64,000 bases of DNA, taken from Brachyspira sp. SAP_772 (GTDB taxonomy: Bacteria; Spirochaetota; Brachyspiria; Brachyspirales; Brachyspiraceae). Of this stretch, positions 43,391 to 47,448 are shown in pieces. Below the pieces are notes generated by a model. The model saw only the letters and a program-made list of their open reading frames with translations. It made no database searches and was not told the DNA's origin. The DNA lies in NCBI RefSeq assembly GCF_009755885.1, contig NZ_VYIX01000003.1:307204-371203 (forward strand). Reading direction: 5' to 3'. A program made the translations under genes and the position numbers. Positions within the stretch are counted from its first letter, which is position 1, and each line of letters opens with the position of its first letter.

Positions 43391-44212
43391 ATGGCAAAAG
43401 ATTATAGTGAATATATAAAAAAATATAATGAAGAGATAAACAATAATCCTAATGATATAAACGCCCTCACTTCTTTAGCAAGAATATATGTAAAAGAAAA
43501 TAAATTAAATGAGGCTGAAAAATATTATAATAAAATATTAGAAAACAACTCTGATAACACTGAAGCTTTGTATATTATAGGTTTTATTAATATGCAAAAA
43601 AATAATTATAAAAAAGCTATAGACAATTTTATTAAATTAATAGAGCTTGGCATAGATAATGCTTTTGTATATGAATATTTATCTATAATGGATAATAATA
43701 ACAGAGAAACATTTTTAAATAAAGCAATAGAAAAACATAATAAAAACAAATTAAAGAGAAAAGATTATGAAAGAGTTTCATATATGGCTTATCAAAGCTA
43801 TAAATGGAAAATGTATGACTTTGCTCTATATTATGCTGAACTTGCATATTCAATAAAACAAACTAATGATATTATAAATCTACTTGGATGCATATGTTTT
43901 TATAGAGGAGAATATGACAAAGCTCTTTCATATTTTCACGAACTTAATTTTAATTGCAACAAAACAAATATATATGCATTATGTAATATATCTTCTTGTT
44001 ATAGAAAGAAAAATAGTAATAATATGGCTATAAAATATTTAGATAAAGCAAAAGCATTAGATGATAATAATAAATTAATATATTTTAACATAGGAACAAT
44101 ATACGATAAGCTTGGAAATAGAAAATCAGCTTTAGAAAATTTTAATAAAGCTATAGAAATTGATTCAAATTATACTGAAGCAATAGATGCCAAAAACTTA
44201 ATATCTATATAA
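43391..44212 (+). CDS. TPR-repeat protein
   Basis: A 273-residue soluble protein built of tetratricopeptide repeats: NPNDINALTSLARIYVKENKLNEAEKYYNKILE near the start and NKLIYFNIGTIYDKLGNRKSALENFNKAIEID near the end, about six to seven repeats in all. No signal peptide. Probably a protein-protein scaffold; partner unknown. GGAGGAAAA precedes the start after tgt (39-base gap), so it is likely in the same operon. Confidence 0.85.
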   Translation: MAKDYSEYIKKYNEEINNNPNDINALTSLARIYVKENKLNEAEKYYNKILENNSDNTEALYIIGFINMQKNNYKKAIDNFIKLIELGIDNAFVYEYLSIMDNNNRETFLNKAIEKHNKNKLKRKDYERVSYMAYQSYKWKMYDFALYYAELAYSIKQTNDIINLLGCICFYRGEYDKALSYFHELNFNCNKTNIYALCNISSCYRKKNSNNMAIKYLDKAKALDDNNKLIYFNIGTIYDKLGNRKSALENFNKAIEIDSNYTEAIDAKNLISI

Positions 44213-44260
44213 TTTTTAATAAAAATTTAATAAAAAAATAAAAAATTCATATAATATCTA

Positions 44261-44288
44261 TTGACATTTTTGTAAATAGTATTACAAT
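44261..44288 (+). promoter_or_regulatory. promoter of the His-leader/binding-protein cluster
   Basis: TTGACA (44261-44266), 16 bases, TACAAT (44283-44288). Transcription would start near 44295, about 26 bases before the first leader ORF, so the leader lies in the 5' mRNA of the first binding-protein gene. Confidence 0.8.
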
Positions 44289-44320
44289 ATATAGTAAGAA
44301 AATCAAGTTAGGAGATAAAA

Positions 44321-44395
44321 ATGAATAAGATGTATTTTTCTACTCTTCAATTATCAAAAACCTTTTCTCCTAAATTCCATCATCACCATCAATAA
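44321..44395 (+). CDS. leader peptide 1 ending in four histidines
   Basis: A 24-codon ORF, too short for ordinary gene finders, with GGAG 6 bases before its ATG. The peptide begins MNKMYFSTLQ and ends SPKFHHHHQ; the His codons are CAT CAT CAC CAT at 44378-44389, one codon before the stop. Just before them TTCTCCTAAATT (44365-44376) is complementary over 12 bases (one G-U) to the ribosome-binding site of the binding-protein gene 110 bases downstream, and over 8 bases to its own. It resembles hisL-type leader peptides, so it is probably a sensor of charged tRNA-His. Function is inferred. Confidence 0.8.
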   Translation: MNKMYFSTLQLSKTFSPKFHHHHQ

Positions 44396-44485
44396 TAATC
44401 ATTTCTTTTATAAACAACTATAAATTTAAAAATATTATTTTTTTTATTACGTTTATATAGATTAATTTTAAAAAAACAATTATTT

Positions 44486-44497
44486 AATTTAGGAGGA
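44486..44497 (+). promoter_or_regulatory. ribosome-binding site of binding protein 1, pairable with leader 1
   Basis: AATTTAGGAGGA contains AGGAGG 8 bases before the ATG at 44505. It can form 12 continuous pairs with 44365-44376 inside leader ORF 1 (one G-U), which would hide the site when no ribosome sits on the leader's His codons. Confidence 0.7.
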
Positions 44498-44504
44498 TAA
44501 AACT

Positions 44505-45308
44505 ATGAAACGTATATTAATTCTATTTTCTATGATTATTTTTGCTATATCTTGTTCAAAAACAGAAACGCAAAATGCAGCTGCAACAGACAACTCTTTA
44601 CAAAAAGTAAAAGACAGCGGTAAACTTATATTAGGTTTGGACGATACTTTTGCCCCTATGGGTTTTAGAGATGAGGCTGGAAATATAGTTGGTTTTGATA
44701 TAGATTTAGCTCAGGAAGTTGCTAATCGCTTGGGAGTAAAATTAGAAGTTAAACCTATAGATTGGGCAAGCGGTATATTAAGCTTAAACAAGGGGGATGT
44801 TGATGTTTTATGGAATGGCTTTACAATTAATGAAACTAGAAAAGAGCAAGTTAATTTCTCTAAGCCATATCTTAACAACAGACTTATAGTAGTAAAAGCT
44901 TCTGACAGAACAGACATTAACAGCAAAGAAGATTTGAAAGGAAAAGTTTTAGGAGTACAGGTTGGAAGCAATCAAGAGGCATTAGAAGCTGATCCTATAA
45001 GCAAAGAAGCTAAAGAGGTTAGACCTTATGATGTTAATGTTAATGCATTTTTAGATTTACAAGCTAAGAGAATAGATGTTGTTGTAATAGATGAAATAGC
45101 AGCACGTTATTATATAGCTGAAAATAATGTTAATTTTGAAGTTGTAGAAAACAGCCCATTAACTGAAGAACTTTATGGCATAGGTTTTAGAAAAAATGAT
45201 ATAGAATTATTAAATGCTGTTGACAAAGCTTTAGATGATATGAGAGCTGATGGAAAAGCAGCAGAGATTTCTACTAAATGGTTTGGTAAAGACATAGTTG
45301 TAAAATAA
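44505..45308 (+). CDS. amino-acid ABC transporter binding lipoprotein 1
   Basis: A 267-residue family-3 solute-binding protein: lipoprotein signal MKRILILFSMIIFAISC, then LILGLDDTFAPMGFRDEAGNIVGFDIDLAQEVANRLG, GDVDVLWNGFTINETRKEQVNFSKPY and VDVVVIDEIAARYYI. It captures a polar amino acid for an ABC importer; no permease or ATPase gene is nearby, so these must be elsewhere. Histidine is suggested by the His-rich leader upstream, but the binding residues do not prove it. First of three paralogues in a row; the other two are about 60 percent alike by eye. Confidence 0.9.
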   Translation: MKRILILFSMIIFAISCSKTETQNAAATDNSLQKVKDSGKLILGLDDTFAPMGFRDEAGNIVGFDIDLAQEVANRLGVKLEVKPIDWASGILSLNKGDVDVLWNGFTINETRKEQVNFSKPYLNNRLIVVKASDRTDINSKEDLKGKVLGVQVGSNQEALEADPISKEAKEVRPYDVNVNAFLDLQAKRIDVVVIDEIAARYYIAENNVNFEVVENSPLTEELYGIGFRKNDIELLNAVDKALDDMRADGKAAEISTKWFGKDIVVK

Positions 45309-45318
45309 ACAAAAAATT

Positions 45319-45345
45319 AATGGGGGCAAATATAAAGCCTCCATT
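45319..45345 (+). terminator. hairpin after binding protein 1 (weak terminator or mRNA stabiliser)
   Basis: AATGGGGGC, loop AAATATAAA, GCCTCCATT form nine pairs with one G-U. Only ATAAATAAAT follows, not a T-run, so some transcription may pass into unit 2. Confidence 0.55.
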
Positions 45346-45419
45346 ATAAATAAATAATAAAAAAATAAATAATTAAAACAAACAAATAAACAAACAAAAA
45401 TAAAAAAAGGAGATTAAAA

Positions 45420-45491
45420 ATGAATAACAGCAAATTCTTTTTCAAAGTTCAATTCTTAAACCAATATTCTCCTTACCATCATCATCATTAA
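45420..45491 (+). CDS. leader peptide 2 ending in four histidines
   Basis: A 23-codon ORF with AAAGGAG 7 bases before the ATG. The peptide begins MNNSKFFFKV and ends QYSPYHHHH, with four CAT codons (45477-45488) right before the stop. Like leader 1 it has an anti-Shine-Dalgarno just before the His run, TTCTCCT at 45467-45473, that matches AGGAGAA in the ribosome-binding site of the next gene (45584-45590) over 7 bases. The shared SP-x-His plan with leader 1 supports a real, duplicated regulatory ORF. Confidence 0.78.
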   Translation: MNNSKFFFKVQFLNQYSPYHHHH

Positions 45492-45596
45492 TAATTTCTT
45501 TTTATTATAAAACTTCAATTTTAAAACAACATTATATTTAATATTAATTAACTTAAAAAAGTTTATTTAAAAATTTAAAAAACAGGAGAAAATACT

Positions 45597-46433
45597 ATGA
45601 AACGTTTAATAACTTTATTCTTTATATTTATTTTTGCAATTATTTTTACTATATCTTGCTCAACAAAAACAGATACACAGAATGCCGCAGAAACTTCAGC
45701 ATCAACAGATAATTCTCTACAAAAAATAAAAGAGCGCGGAAAACTTGTATTAGGTTTAGACGACACTTTTGCCCCTATGGGTTTTAGAGATGAAGAGGGA
45801 AACATAGTTGGTTTTGATATAGACTTAGCTAAGGAGGTAGCTAACCGCCTCGGGGTGGAGTTGGTAGCTAAACCTATAGATTGGTCTAGCGTTGTATTGA
45901 GCTTAAAAAAAGGTGATGTTGATGTGGTATGGAATGGGTTTGCTATTAGTGAAAGCAGAAAAGAGCAAGTTAATTTCTCTAAACCATATCTTAATAACAG
46001 ACTTATGATAGTTAAATATGCAGGAAGAGATGATATTAAAACTAAAGATGATTTAAAAGGAAAAGTATTAGGTGTTCAAACAGGAAGCAGCAATTATGAA
46101 TCATTAGAAGCTGACCCTATAAGCAAAGAAACTAAAGAGATTAGACAGTATGATGTTTATGCTAATGCTTTTTTAGATTTAGAGGCTCAAAGAATTGATG
46201 CTGTAATAGTTGATGAAATAGTAGCTCGTTATTATATATCTAAAGAAAATGCTAATTTTGAGATATTAGAAGAATACCCTATTACATCTAAATATTTCGG
46301 AGTGGGAGTAAAAAAAGAAAATATGGCATTATTGAATGCTATTGATAAAACTTTAGATGAGATGAGAGCCGATGGAAAGGCTTCAGAAATAGCTACTAAA
46401 TGGTTTGGTAAAGATGTATTTATAAAAGGATAA
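45597..46433 (+). CDS. amino-acid ABC transporter binding lipoprotein 2
   Basis: A 278-residue paralogue of binding protein 1: signal ending TISC, then LVLGLDDTFAPMGFRDEEGNIVGFDIDLAKEVANRLG, GDVDVVWNGFAISESRKEQVNFSKPY, and AVIVDEIVARYYI. Same probable role, high-affinity uptake of a polar amino acid for an importer encoded elsewhere. The leader ORF 2 precedes it by 105 bases. Small changes along the ligand-contact segments compared with protein 1 could alter specificity. Confidence 0.9.
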   Translation: MKRLITLFFIFIFAIIFTISCSTKTDTQNAAETSASTDNSLQKIKERGKLVLGLDDTFAPMGFRDEEGNIVGFDIDLAKEVANRLGVELVAKPIDWSSVVLSLKKGDVDVVWNGFAISESRKEQVNFSKPYLNNRLMIVKYAGRDDIKTKDDLKGKVLGVQTGSSNYESLEADPISKETKEIRQYDVYANAFLDLEAQRIDAVIVDEIVARYYISKENANFEILEEYPITSKYFGVGVKKENMALLNAIDKTLDEMRADGKASEIATKWFGKDVFIKG

Positions 46434-46485
46434 TTAATTTAATAGGGATATAATAGTCAAATTAAAAATAAATAGGAGTTAAAAA

Positions 46486-46536
46486 ATGAATAATAACTTT
46501 TACATGGTTGAATTATTAAAAGAATATCATCATTAG
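46486..46536 (+). CDS. leader peptide 3 ending in two histidines
   Basis: A 16-codon ORF with TAGGAG 7 bases before the ATG. The peptide reads MNNNFYMVELLKEYHH; two CAT codons (46528-46533) precede the TAG stop. It keeps the start MNN, the ribosome-binding site and the His end, but has no TCTCCT segment, so it lacks the anti-Shine-Dalgarno of leaders 1 and 2. A TATAAT at 46449-46454 might be a -10 box but no good -35 is seen. It may be a decaying or differently working copy. Confidence 0.65.
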   Translation: MNNNFYMVELLKEYHH

Positions 46537-46632
46537 TTAATAATTTATAACATTTTTACACTATATATTATTAATTATAAAAAACTTTATTAAACAAATT
46601 TTATTAAACAAATTAAAAACAGGAGAAAAACA

Positions 46633-47448
46633 ATGAAACGTATAATAACTTTATTCTTTATATTTATTTTTGCTATATCTTGCTCAACAAAAACAGATAC
46701 ACAAAATACAGGAGAAGCAGATAATTCTCTACAAAAAGTAAAAGAAGCAGGTAAATTAGTATTAGGTTTAGATGATGCCTTTGCACCTATGAGTTTTATA
46801 GATGAAAATGAAGAGATTGTTGGCTTTGATATTGATTTAGCTAAGGAGGTTACTAAGATTATGGGGGTAGAGTTAGAAACTAAGCCAGTAGATTGGGCTA
46901 GTTCTATATTGAGCTTAAAAAAAGGAGATATTGATGTAATATGGAGCGGATTTGCTGTTAATGAAAGCAGAAAAAAACAAGTTAATTTTTCTAAACCATA
47001 TCTTTATAATAGACTTATGGTAGCAATATATGCAGGCAGAGATGATATTAAAAGCAAAGAGGATTTAAAGGGAAAAGTAGTAGGAGTACAAACAGGAAGC
47101 AGTAATTATGAAATATTATTAAATGACCCTATAAGCAAAGAACTTAAAGAGATTAGACAGTATGATACTTATGTTAATGCTTTTTTAGATTTAGAGGCTC
47201 AAAGAATAGATGCTGTAGTAGCAGGCGAGACAACAATTCGTTATTATATAGCTAAAGAAAATGCTAATTTTGAGTTATTAGAAGAGGAACCTCTTACATC
47301 TCAATATGTTAGCGTTGGTCTTAGAAAAGGAGATATGGAATTATTGAATGCTATTGATAGTGCTTTAGATACTATTAGAACAAATGGAAAAGCTTCAGAA
47401 ATAGCTACTAAATGGTTCGGTCAAGATATAATTGTAAGAGTAGATTAA
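46633..47448 (+). CDS. amino-acid ABC transporter binding lipoprotein 3
   Basis: A 271-residue third paralogue: signal ending AISC, then LVLGLDDAFAPMSFIDENEEIVGFDIDLAKEVTKIMG, GDIDVIWSGFAVNESRKKQVNFSKPY, and DAVVAGETTIRYYI. Where proteins 1 and 2 have LDDTFAPMGF, WNGF and VDEI, this one has LDDAFAPMSF, WSGF and AGET, so its ligand may differ. AGGAGA lies 7 bases before the start. Its signal and early sequence are closer to protein 2, suggesting that 2 and 3 arose by the later duplication. Confidence 0.9.
   Translation: MKRIITLFFIFIFAISCSTKTDTQNTGEADNSLQKVKEAGKLVLGLDDAFAPMSFIDENEEIVGFDIDLAKEVTKIMGVELETKPVDWASSILSLKKGDIDVIWSGFAVNESRKKQVNFSKPYLYNRLMVAIYAGRDDIKSKEDLKGKVVGVQTGSSNYEILLNDPISKELKEIRQYDTYVNAFLDLEAQRIDAVVAGETTIRYYIAKENANFELLEEEPLTSQYVSVGLRKGDMELLNAIDSALDTIRTNGKASEIATKWFGQDIIVRVD

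Follow-up and report, generated by a model that had tools for sequence, protein, structure and literature searches.

A candidate histidine-responsive translational attenuator ahead of paralogous binding-protein genes in Brachyspira

Introduction

The described systems closest to the locus studied here are histidine attenuators of the hisL type, known from enterobacteria (Rfam RF00514), in which a short leader open reading frame (ORF) ends in consecutive His codons and charged tRNA-His is sensed by ribosome stalling. His attenuators also stand ahead of his operons in Bacillus cereus, Peptostreptococcaceae and Erysipelotrichales; for some attenuators, occlusion of the ribosome-binding site is reported in place of a terminator (PMC9413887). 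We analysed a stretch of 64,000 nucleotides (nt) of the genome of Brachyspira sp. SAP_772 (contig NZ_VYIX01000003.1, positions 307,204 to 371,203; henceforth the window), in which three mini-ORFs ending in His codons stand ahead of three paralogous genes for amino-acid-binding lipoproteins. In our reading, to which we assign a probability of roughly 0.7, this arrangement is a histidine-responsive translational attenuator acting by ribosome occlusion, with two working copies and one decayed copy in the window. The short leader ORF and the predicted sensing of charged tRNA-His by stalling are shared with hisL and the other His attenuators (PMC9413887), whereas the target (a binding-protein gene), the predicted output (occlusion of the Shine-Dalgarno (SD) site) and the lack of a terminator and antiterminator set the locus apart from RF00514.

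Attenuation by a leader peptide with hiding of the SD is of an already known kind; what seem to be new are the layout, the host and the triplication. A literature search returned no precedent for a stretch complementary to the SD (anti-SD) directly before the sensing codons, for serial repeats or for a spirochaete host, and we know of no earlier leader-peptide control in spirochaetes. In antibiotic-resistance attenuators of the ermC type, a drug-dependent stall refolds alternative hairpins and frees a downstream SD; a stalled leader ribosome is predicted to free the SD in Brachyspira as well, but here the stall would come from codon starvation and the ribosome would cover the anti-SD directly. 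His attenuators have also been predicted in gamma-proteobacteria before other histidine transporter families. Histidine-controlled uptake genes, auxotrophs included, are found in Firmicutes, where HisXYZ* histidine ATP-binding cassette (ABC) transporters are under HisR or a His T-box (PMC9413887); Brachyspira differs in having a leader peptide in place of the protein repressor or T-box, and three successive binding proteins whose probable permease and ATPase are encoded at another place in the genome. Finally, the actinobacterial LEU element before leuA resembles the Brachyspira units in that the regulatory codon region of the leader pairs with the downstream SD, although in that element it is the Leu codons that pair, as part of a pseudoknot, whereas the pairing codons in Brachyspira precede the His run (PMC1262725). 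Mutation of the Leu codons reportedly left regulation by the LEU element unaffected, and its authors doubt attenuation and suspect a binding protein (PMC1262725).

We consider it an even bet that the locus represents a minimal amino-acid sensor, in which a repressing anti-SD is written in sense codons directly before the sensing codons and a stalled ribosome lifts the block, the unit having been duplicated with its gene and repeated on one transcript, with paralogues controlled separately, in a spirochaete lineage without histidine biosynthesis. If true, this would be a compact and portable form of amino-acid sensing at the level of translation, and would connect the B. pilosicoli group's lack of histidine synthesis with controlled, amplified uptake. 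The natural variants of the unit (intact, decayed and absent) make the mechanism directly testable.

Leader units and transcript layout

An earlier note on this DNA had described three mini-ORFs with GGAG-type ribosome-binding sites of their own and His codons (4/4/2) within one codon of the stop, each ahead of one of three paralogous binding-lipoprotein genes. Both observations were borne out exactly, with 109, 105 and 96 nt between leaders 1, 2 and 3 and the genes at 44505, 45597 and 46633, respectively. The features are as follows:

44261-44288, + strand: sigma-70-type promoter TTGACA-16-TACAAT (11/12 consensus positions), the only strong one ahead of the three units
44310-44314, + strand: SD site of leader 1, AGGAG
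44321-44395, + strand: leader peptide ORF 1, 24 codons, SPKF-HHHH-Q end, MNKMYFSTLQLSKTFSPKFHHHHQ
44378-44389, + strand: four His codons of leader 1
44505-45308, + strand: amino-acid-binding lipoprotein gene 1, HisX-like, probable histidine-binding protein
45408-45412, + strand: SD site of leader 2, AGGAG
45420-45491, + strand: leader peptide ORF 2, 23 codons, SPY-HHHH end, MNNSKFFFKVQFLNQYSPYHHHH
45477-45488, + strand: four His codons of leader 2
45597-46433, + strand: amino-acid-binding lipoprotein gene 2, paralogue of gene 1
46474-46478, + strand: SD site of leader 3, AGGAG
46486-46536, + strand: leader peptide ORF 3, 16 codons, two His codons, no anti-SD (decayed unit), MNNNFYMVELLKEYHH
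46633-47448, + strand: amino-acid-binding lipoprotein gene 3, paralogue

That the plan is repeated three times, as the note also had it, holds for leaders 1 and 2, to which the full plan is confined; leader 3 of the window is degenerate (two His codons, no anti-SD). Leader 1 starts about 35 nt or less from the predicted transcript start, and a promoter lies at the matching place in the other genomes that have a leader. Because leaders 2 and 3 have no promoter of comparable strength of their own, the three units are probably co-transcribed.

A His-run leader shortly behind a promoter, together with the terminator-type His attenuators that precede his operons in Proteobacteria and some Firmicutes (PMC9413887), would suit transcription attenuation of the hisL kind, in which a stalled ribosome favours an antiterminator and transcription passes a terminator before the binding-protein gene. 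However, we found no intrinsic terminator between leader and gene in any unit, and an Rfam search of 44200-46700 gave no family match at E up to 1, including the His leader (RF00514) and the T-box, for which a covariance match upstream of the gene would be expected. Moreover, units 2 and 3, although internal to the presumed transcript, have leaders of their own, which would be needless under a block at its front. We therefore regard this explanation as unlikely, with Rho-dependent termination a possible form of it. Of the hisL-like plan proposed in the note, the part that stands is the leader peptide (a His-run ORF with its own SD), while the terminator and antiterminator between leader and gene are missing.

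Predicted occlusion of the downstream SD

We compared the window's genome (G000) with the rest of a sample of 26 Brachyspira genomes. Leaders are kept in all four B. pilosicoli-group genomes assembled across the locus (G000, G011, G012, i.e., B. pilosicoli PC5538III-hc, and G014); in the fifth, G013, the contig ends inside the cluster and the units are unreadable. All nine intact leaders of the group carry TCT CCT (usually followed by AAA) directly before the His run; these codons complement the SD ahead of the binding-protein gene, and TCTCCTAAA is invariant across the four species. In the window, the pairing partners are:

44365-44376, + strand: anti-SD stretch TTCTCCTAAATT in leader 1, complementary over 12 bases (one G-U) to 44486-44497
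44486-44497, + strand: SD region of binding-protein gene 1, AATTTAGGAGGA, partner of the anti-SD
45467-45473, + strand: anti-SD stretch TTCTCCT in leader 2, complementary to 45584-45590
45584-45590, + strand: SD region of binding-protein gene 2, AGGAGAA
46621-46625, + strand: SD site of binding-protein gene 3, predicted mostly free (0.76 unpaired)

According to the mechanism we propose, when histidine is plentiful ribosomes would run off the leader, the anti-SD would pair with the downstream SD and the binding protein would be little translated. When histidyl-tRNA is short, a ribosome stalled at the His codons would cover the anti-SD with its footprint, which would release the SD and allow synthesis of the histidine-binding protein. 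With its 4-6 codons, the His run would also set the stop codon apart from the anti-SD, such that a ribosome at the stop codon would have largely uncovered it in the four unit-1 leaders and in G011 unit 2. Neither an alternative hairpin nor a terminator would be required.

In the nine intact units, the SD-anti-SD duplexes have energies of -9.5 to -15.1 kcal/mol, placing them among the best 0-3.6% of background windows. We then placed a ribosome on each leader codon in turn in a folding model and computed the unpaired fraction of the downstream SD. With no ribosome on the leader, this fraction was 0.00-0.08 in the nine intact units, and it rose to about 0.3-0.7 when the ribosome covered the anti-SD and the first His codons (in G011 unit 2, 0.26 at the first His codon and 0.4-0.6 at later ones). 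A ribosome at the stop codon returned it to 0.00-0.15 in every unit-1 leader and in unit 2 of G011. Among 47 SD-bearing genes modelled in the same manner, the combination of a hidden SD (below 0.1) and a gain of at least 0.3 on masking was found in nine of nine intact units and in 0 of 38 others. In silico, therefore, the leader RNA sequesters the SD in window units 1 and 2, and a stall at the His codons frees it. By contrast, the SD of window unit 3 is open throughout (0.76) and no sequestration is predicted. Given that the anti-SD complement and most His codons have been lost from leader 3, its switch is probably non-functional and gene 3 constitutive; we count this joint loss in favour of translational attenuation.

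Distribution and sequence change of the leaders

To ask how often such ORFs arise by chance, we searched the 26 genomes for GGAGN{4,10}ATGN{30,60}CAYCAYCAY and filtered for one shared open frame. This gave 10 matches, 9 of which are leaders at this locus (in G000, G011, G012 and G014). In counts that ignore the relatedness of the genomes, His occupies 41/80 of the last 8 codon positions in ten pilosicoli-group leaders (0.75 expected) and 0/136 codons elsewhere in them. A further seventeen genomes have a leader ORF at the matching place with the same promoter ahead and 1-3 His codons near its end, and the same kind of count gives His in 30/136 of the last 8 codons of leaders outside the pilosicoli group (1.3 expected). 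Judged by these sequence patterns, the leaders are beyond chance. In G001, G003 and G019 the binding-protein gene is present without such a leader.

Across the four species, the leader ORFs and their SD sites are conserved, their frames stay open, spacer lengths vary (109-113 and 105-133), and changes in the His run are in frame, as they are across the three paralogues. Leader 3 is MNNNFYTMQLLKNYSPRHHHH in G011 and absent from G012 and G014. In two species (loci L031 and L032) the leader of unit 3 is wholly lost, with a 67-base gap after gene 2, and expression of gene 3 there is probably no longer histidine-controlled. Of the features that the note proposed to compare, open frames and His runs are kept in the four species while other codons change; the spacing varies, and leader 3 is decayed or absent with its gene intact. 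Such losses would be consistent with spurious ORFs, i.e., CAT repeats made by slippage in a functionless spacer, as would the decay of leader 3 in the window. This explanation is hardly credible to us, given a pattern that is near-unique in 26 genomes, frames that stay open and His runs that change in frame across the four species and three paralogues, and switch behaviour that is missing from the controls.

Codon changes in the leaders were amino-acid-changing in 11 cases and silent in 1, against 61/104 in the downstream genes (Fisher p 0.0002); this ratio, opposite to that of the genes, means that the leader peptide is not conserved as a protein. TCTCCTAAA and CATCAT are conserved while the peptide otherwise changes, and the N-terminal codons of leader 1 are well conserved. 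C-terminal His runs can bind metals, and the mini-ORFs could on that account encode functional His-rich micropeptides (e.g., metal-binding ones) instead of sensing leaders, which the conserved N-terminus of leader 1 would also suit. The 11:1 ratio, the decay or disappearance of leader 3 beside an intact gene and the scarcity of His in relatives outside the group speak against this, and we hold it to be very unlikely.

Leaders of prototrophs show no such switch in the model. A stalled leader ribosome that chiefly shields the mRNA from decay (a 5' stabiliser), with SD pairing secondary, would suit these leaders too, and it agrees with the start of leader 1 close behind the predicted transcript start. 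Yet it accounts neither for the anti-SD beside the His codons nor for the leaders that genes 2 and 3, far inside the transcript, have of their own, and we consider it improbable. As a separate observation, prototroph leaders (L049, L038, L034, L050 and other loci) end in a CAT ACC ACC-like stretch (His-Thr-Thr), whose C-ending codons look unusual for such an AT-rich genome and which can pair with the leader SD in some prototrophic species. A helix between leader SD and leader tail was rejected as a common mechanism in prototrophs, as own pairs were no better than pairs swapped between groups.

Wider searches were also carried out. A Trp-run pattern gave only noise within the genus. The His-run pattern gave many matches in 296 genomes of the phylum, and those read through, in filtering that was not exhaustive, were in-gene or out of frame. 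His-run leaders ahead of binding-protein relatives in other bacteria, including Treponema, were not convincing in any case. A search of the four group genomes for further switches (SD-ATG-TCTCCT) had as its most suggestive conserved match the start of an ordinary membrane-protein gene.

Histidine biosynthesis and uptake

We found hisD in 19/26 genomes; it is absent from 5/5 pilosicoli-group genomes (including G013), which also lack hisG, and from two others. All 17 genomes bearing the weaker leader have hisD. The two genomes without hisD outside the group are G019, which has no such leader, and G023, which is incomplete and has only a more distant relative of the binding-protein gene. No His leader was seen ahead of hisG-hisD in prototrophs. 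The 2010 B. pilosicoli genome paper had noted the lack of histidine genes and three extra binding proteins, and suggested a tie between the two, with leaders unmentioned (PMC2897892).

The binding proteins have the fold and sequence of polar amino-acid-binding proteins, and family models place them there. Their scores do not reach the thresholds set for the enterobacterial HisJ, ArgT and cystine models; falling below that for HisJ, they are not an enterobacterial HisJ. By sequence, the nearest natural match with a solved structure is the pneumococcal protein 4OHN, whose crystals contained histidine and which has the DxTFxPMGF, PIDW and WNG motifs in common with the binding protein. These motifs differ in a Gln/Arg-type ancestor, which was listed ahead of 4OHN, and the fold scores of other amino-acid binders tie with that of 4OHN. 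In the tree of binding proteins the three copies group together within the pilosicoli group; on this topology, the leader with its His run and SPK codons is older than the duplications, and it later decayed or vanished at copy 3 in three of four species.

In prototrophs, the orthologue of the binding-protein gene adjoins the gene for an amino-acid ABC transporter ATPase, which ends directly before the promoter and leader. The window's genome has, at locus L088, a permease and ATPase pair of polar amino-acid type with no binding protein alongside. As the C-terminus of this ATPase matches that of the ATPase directly upstream of the leader in prototrophs, the three binding proteins probably work with this pair.

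Weighing translational attenuation

The histidine-responsive control of histidine uptake suggested in the earlier note is well supported by the kept leaders, by a group without hisD and hisG, and by a binding protein resembling a histidine-bound one; window leader 3 is probably no switch. For the anti-SD itself, complementarity stands out against peptide-shuffled controls (p 0.003-0.07).

Several points weigh against translational attenuation by occlusion. The evidence base is computational throughout and the four species compared are closely related. A synonymous-recoding test of the anti-SD was not significant (p 0.24-0.35), and Ser and Pro are here most often encoded by TCT and CCT, which makes the complementarity unexceptional given the peptide SPK. 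Coordinated change of anti-SD and SD amounts to one event (TTC codon plus C to T, G000/G012). The anti-SD can also be taken up by the leader's own SD, which makes it uncertain how the competing structures balance in the cell. For unit 2 of three species, the model predicts an SD that stays partly free with a ribosome at the stop codon, and the missing switch in prototroph leaders counts on this side as well. Finally, the putative histidine specificity of the binding protein is drawn from its similarity to 4OHN.

Further structures at the locus

Two additional structures were observed. The spacer at 44448-44460 (TACGTTTATATAG) can pair with 44502-44514 (CTATGAAACGTA) around the start codon of gene 1 in all four species, a helix that would either compete with the anti-SD pairing or make a pseudoknot with it. 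A G+C-rich hairpin (AATGGGGGC...GCCTCCATT) with no T run lies at 45322-45348, in the stretch that separates gene 1 from leader 2; it is kept in relatives and is perhaps a processing or stabilising element.
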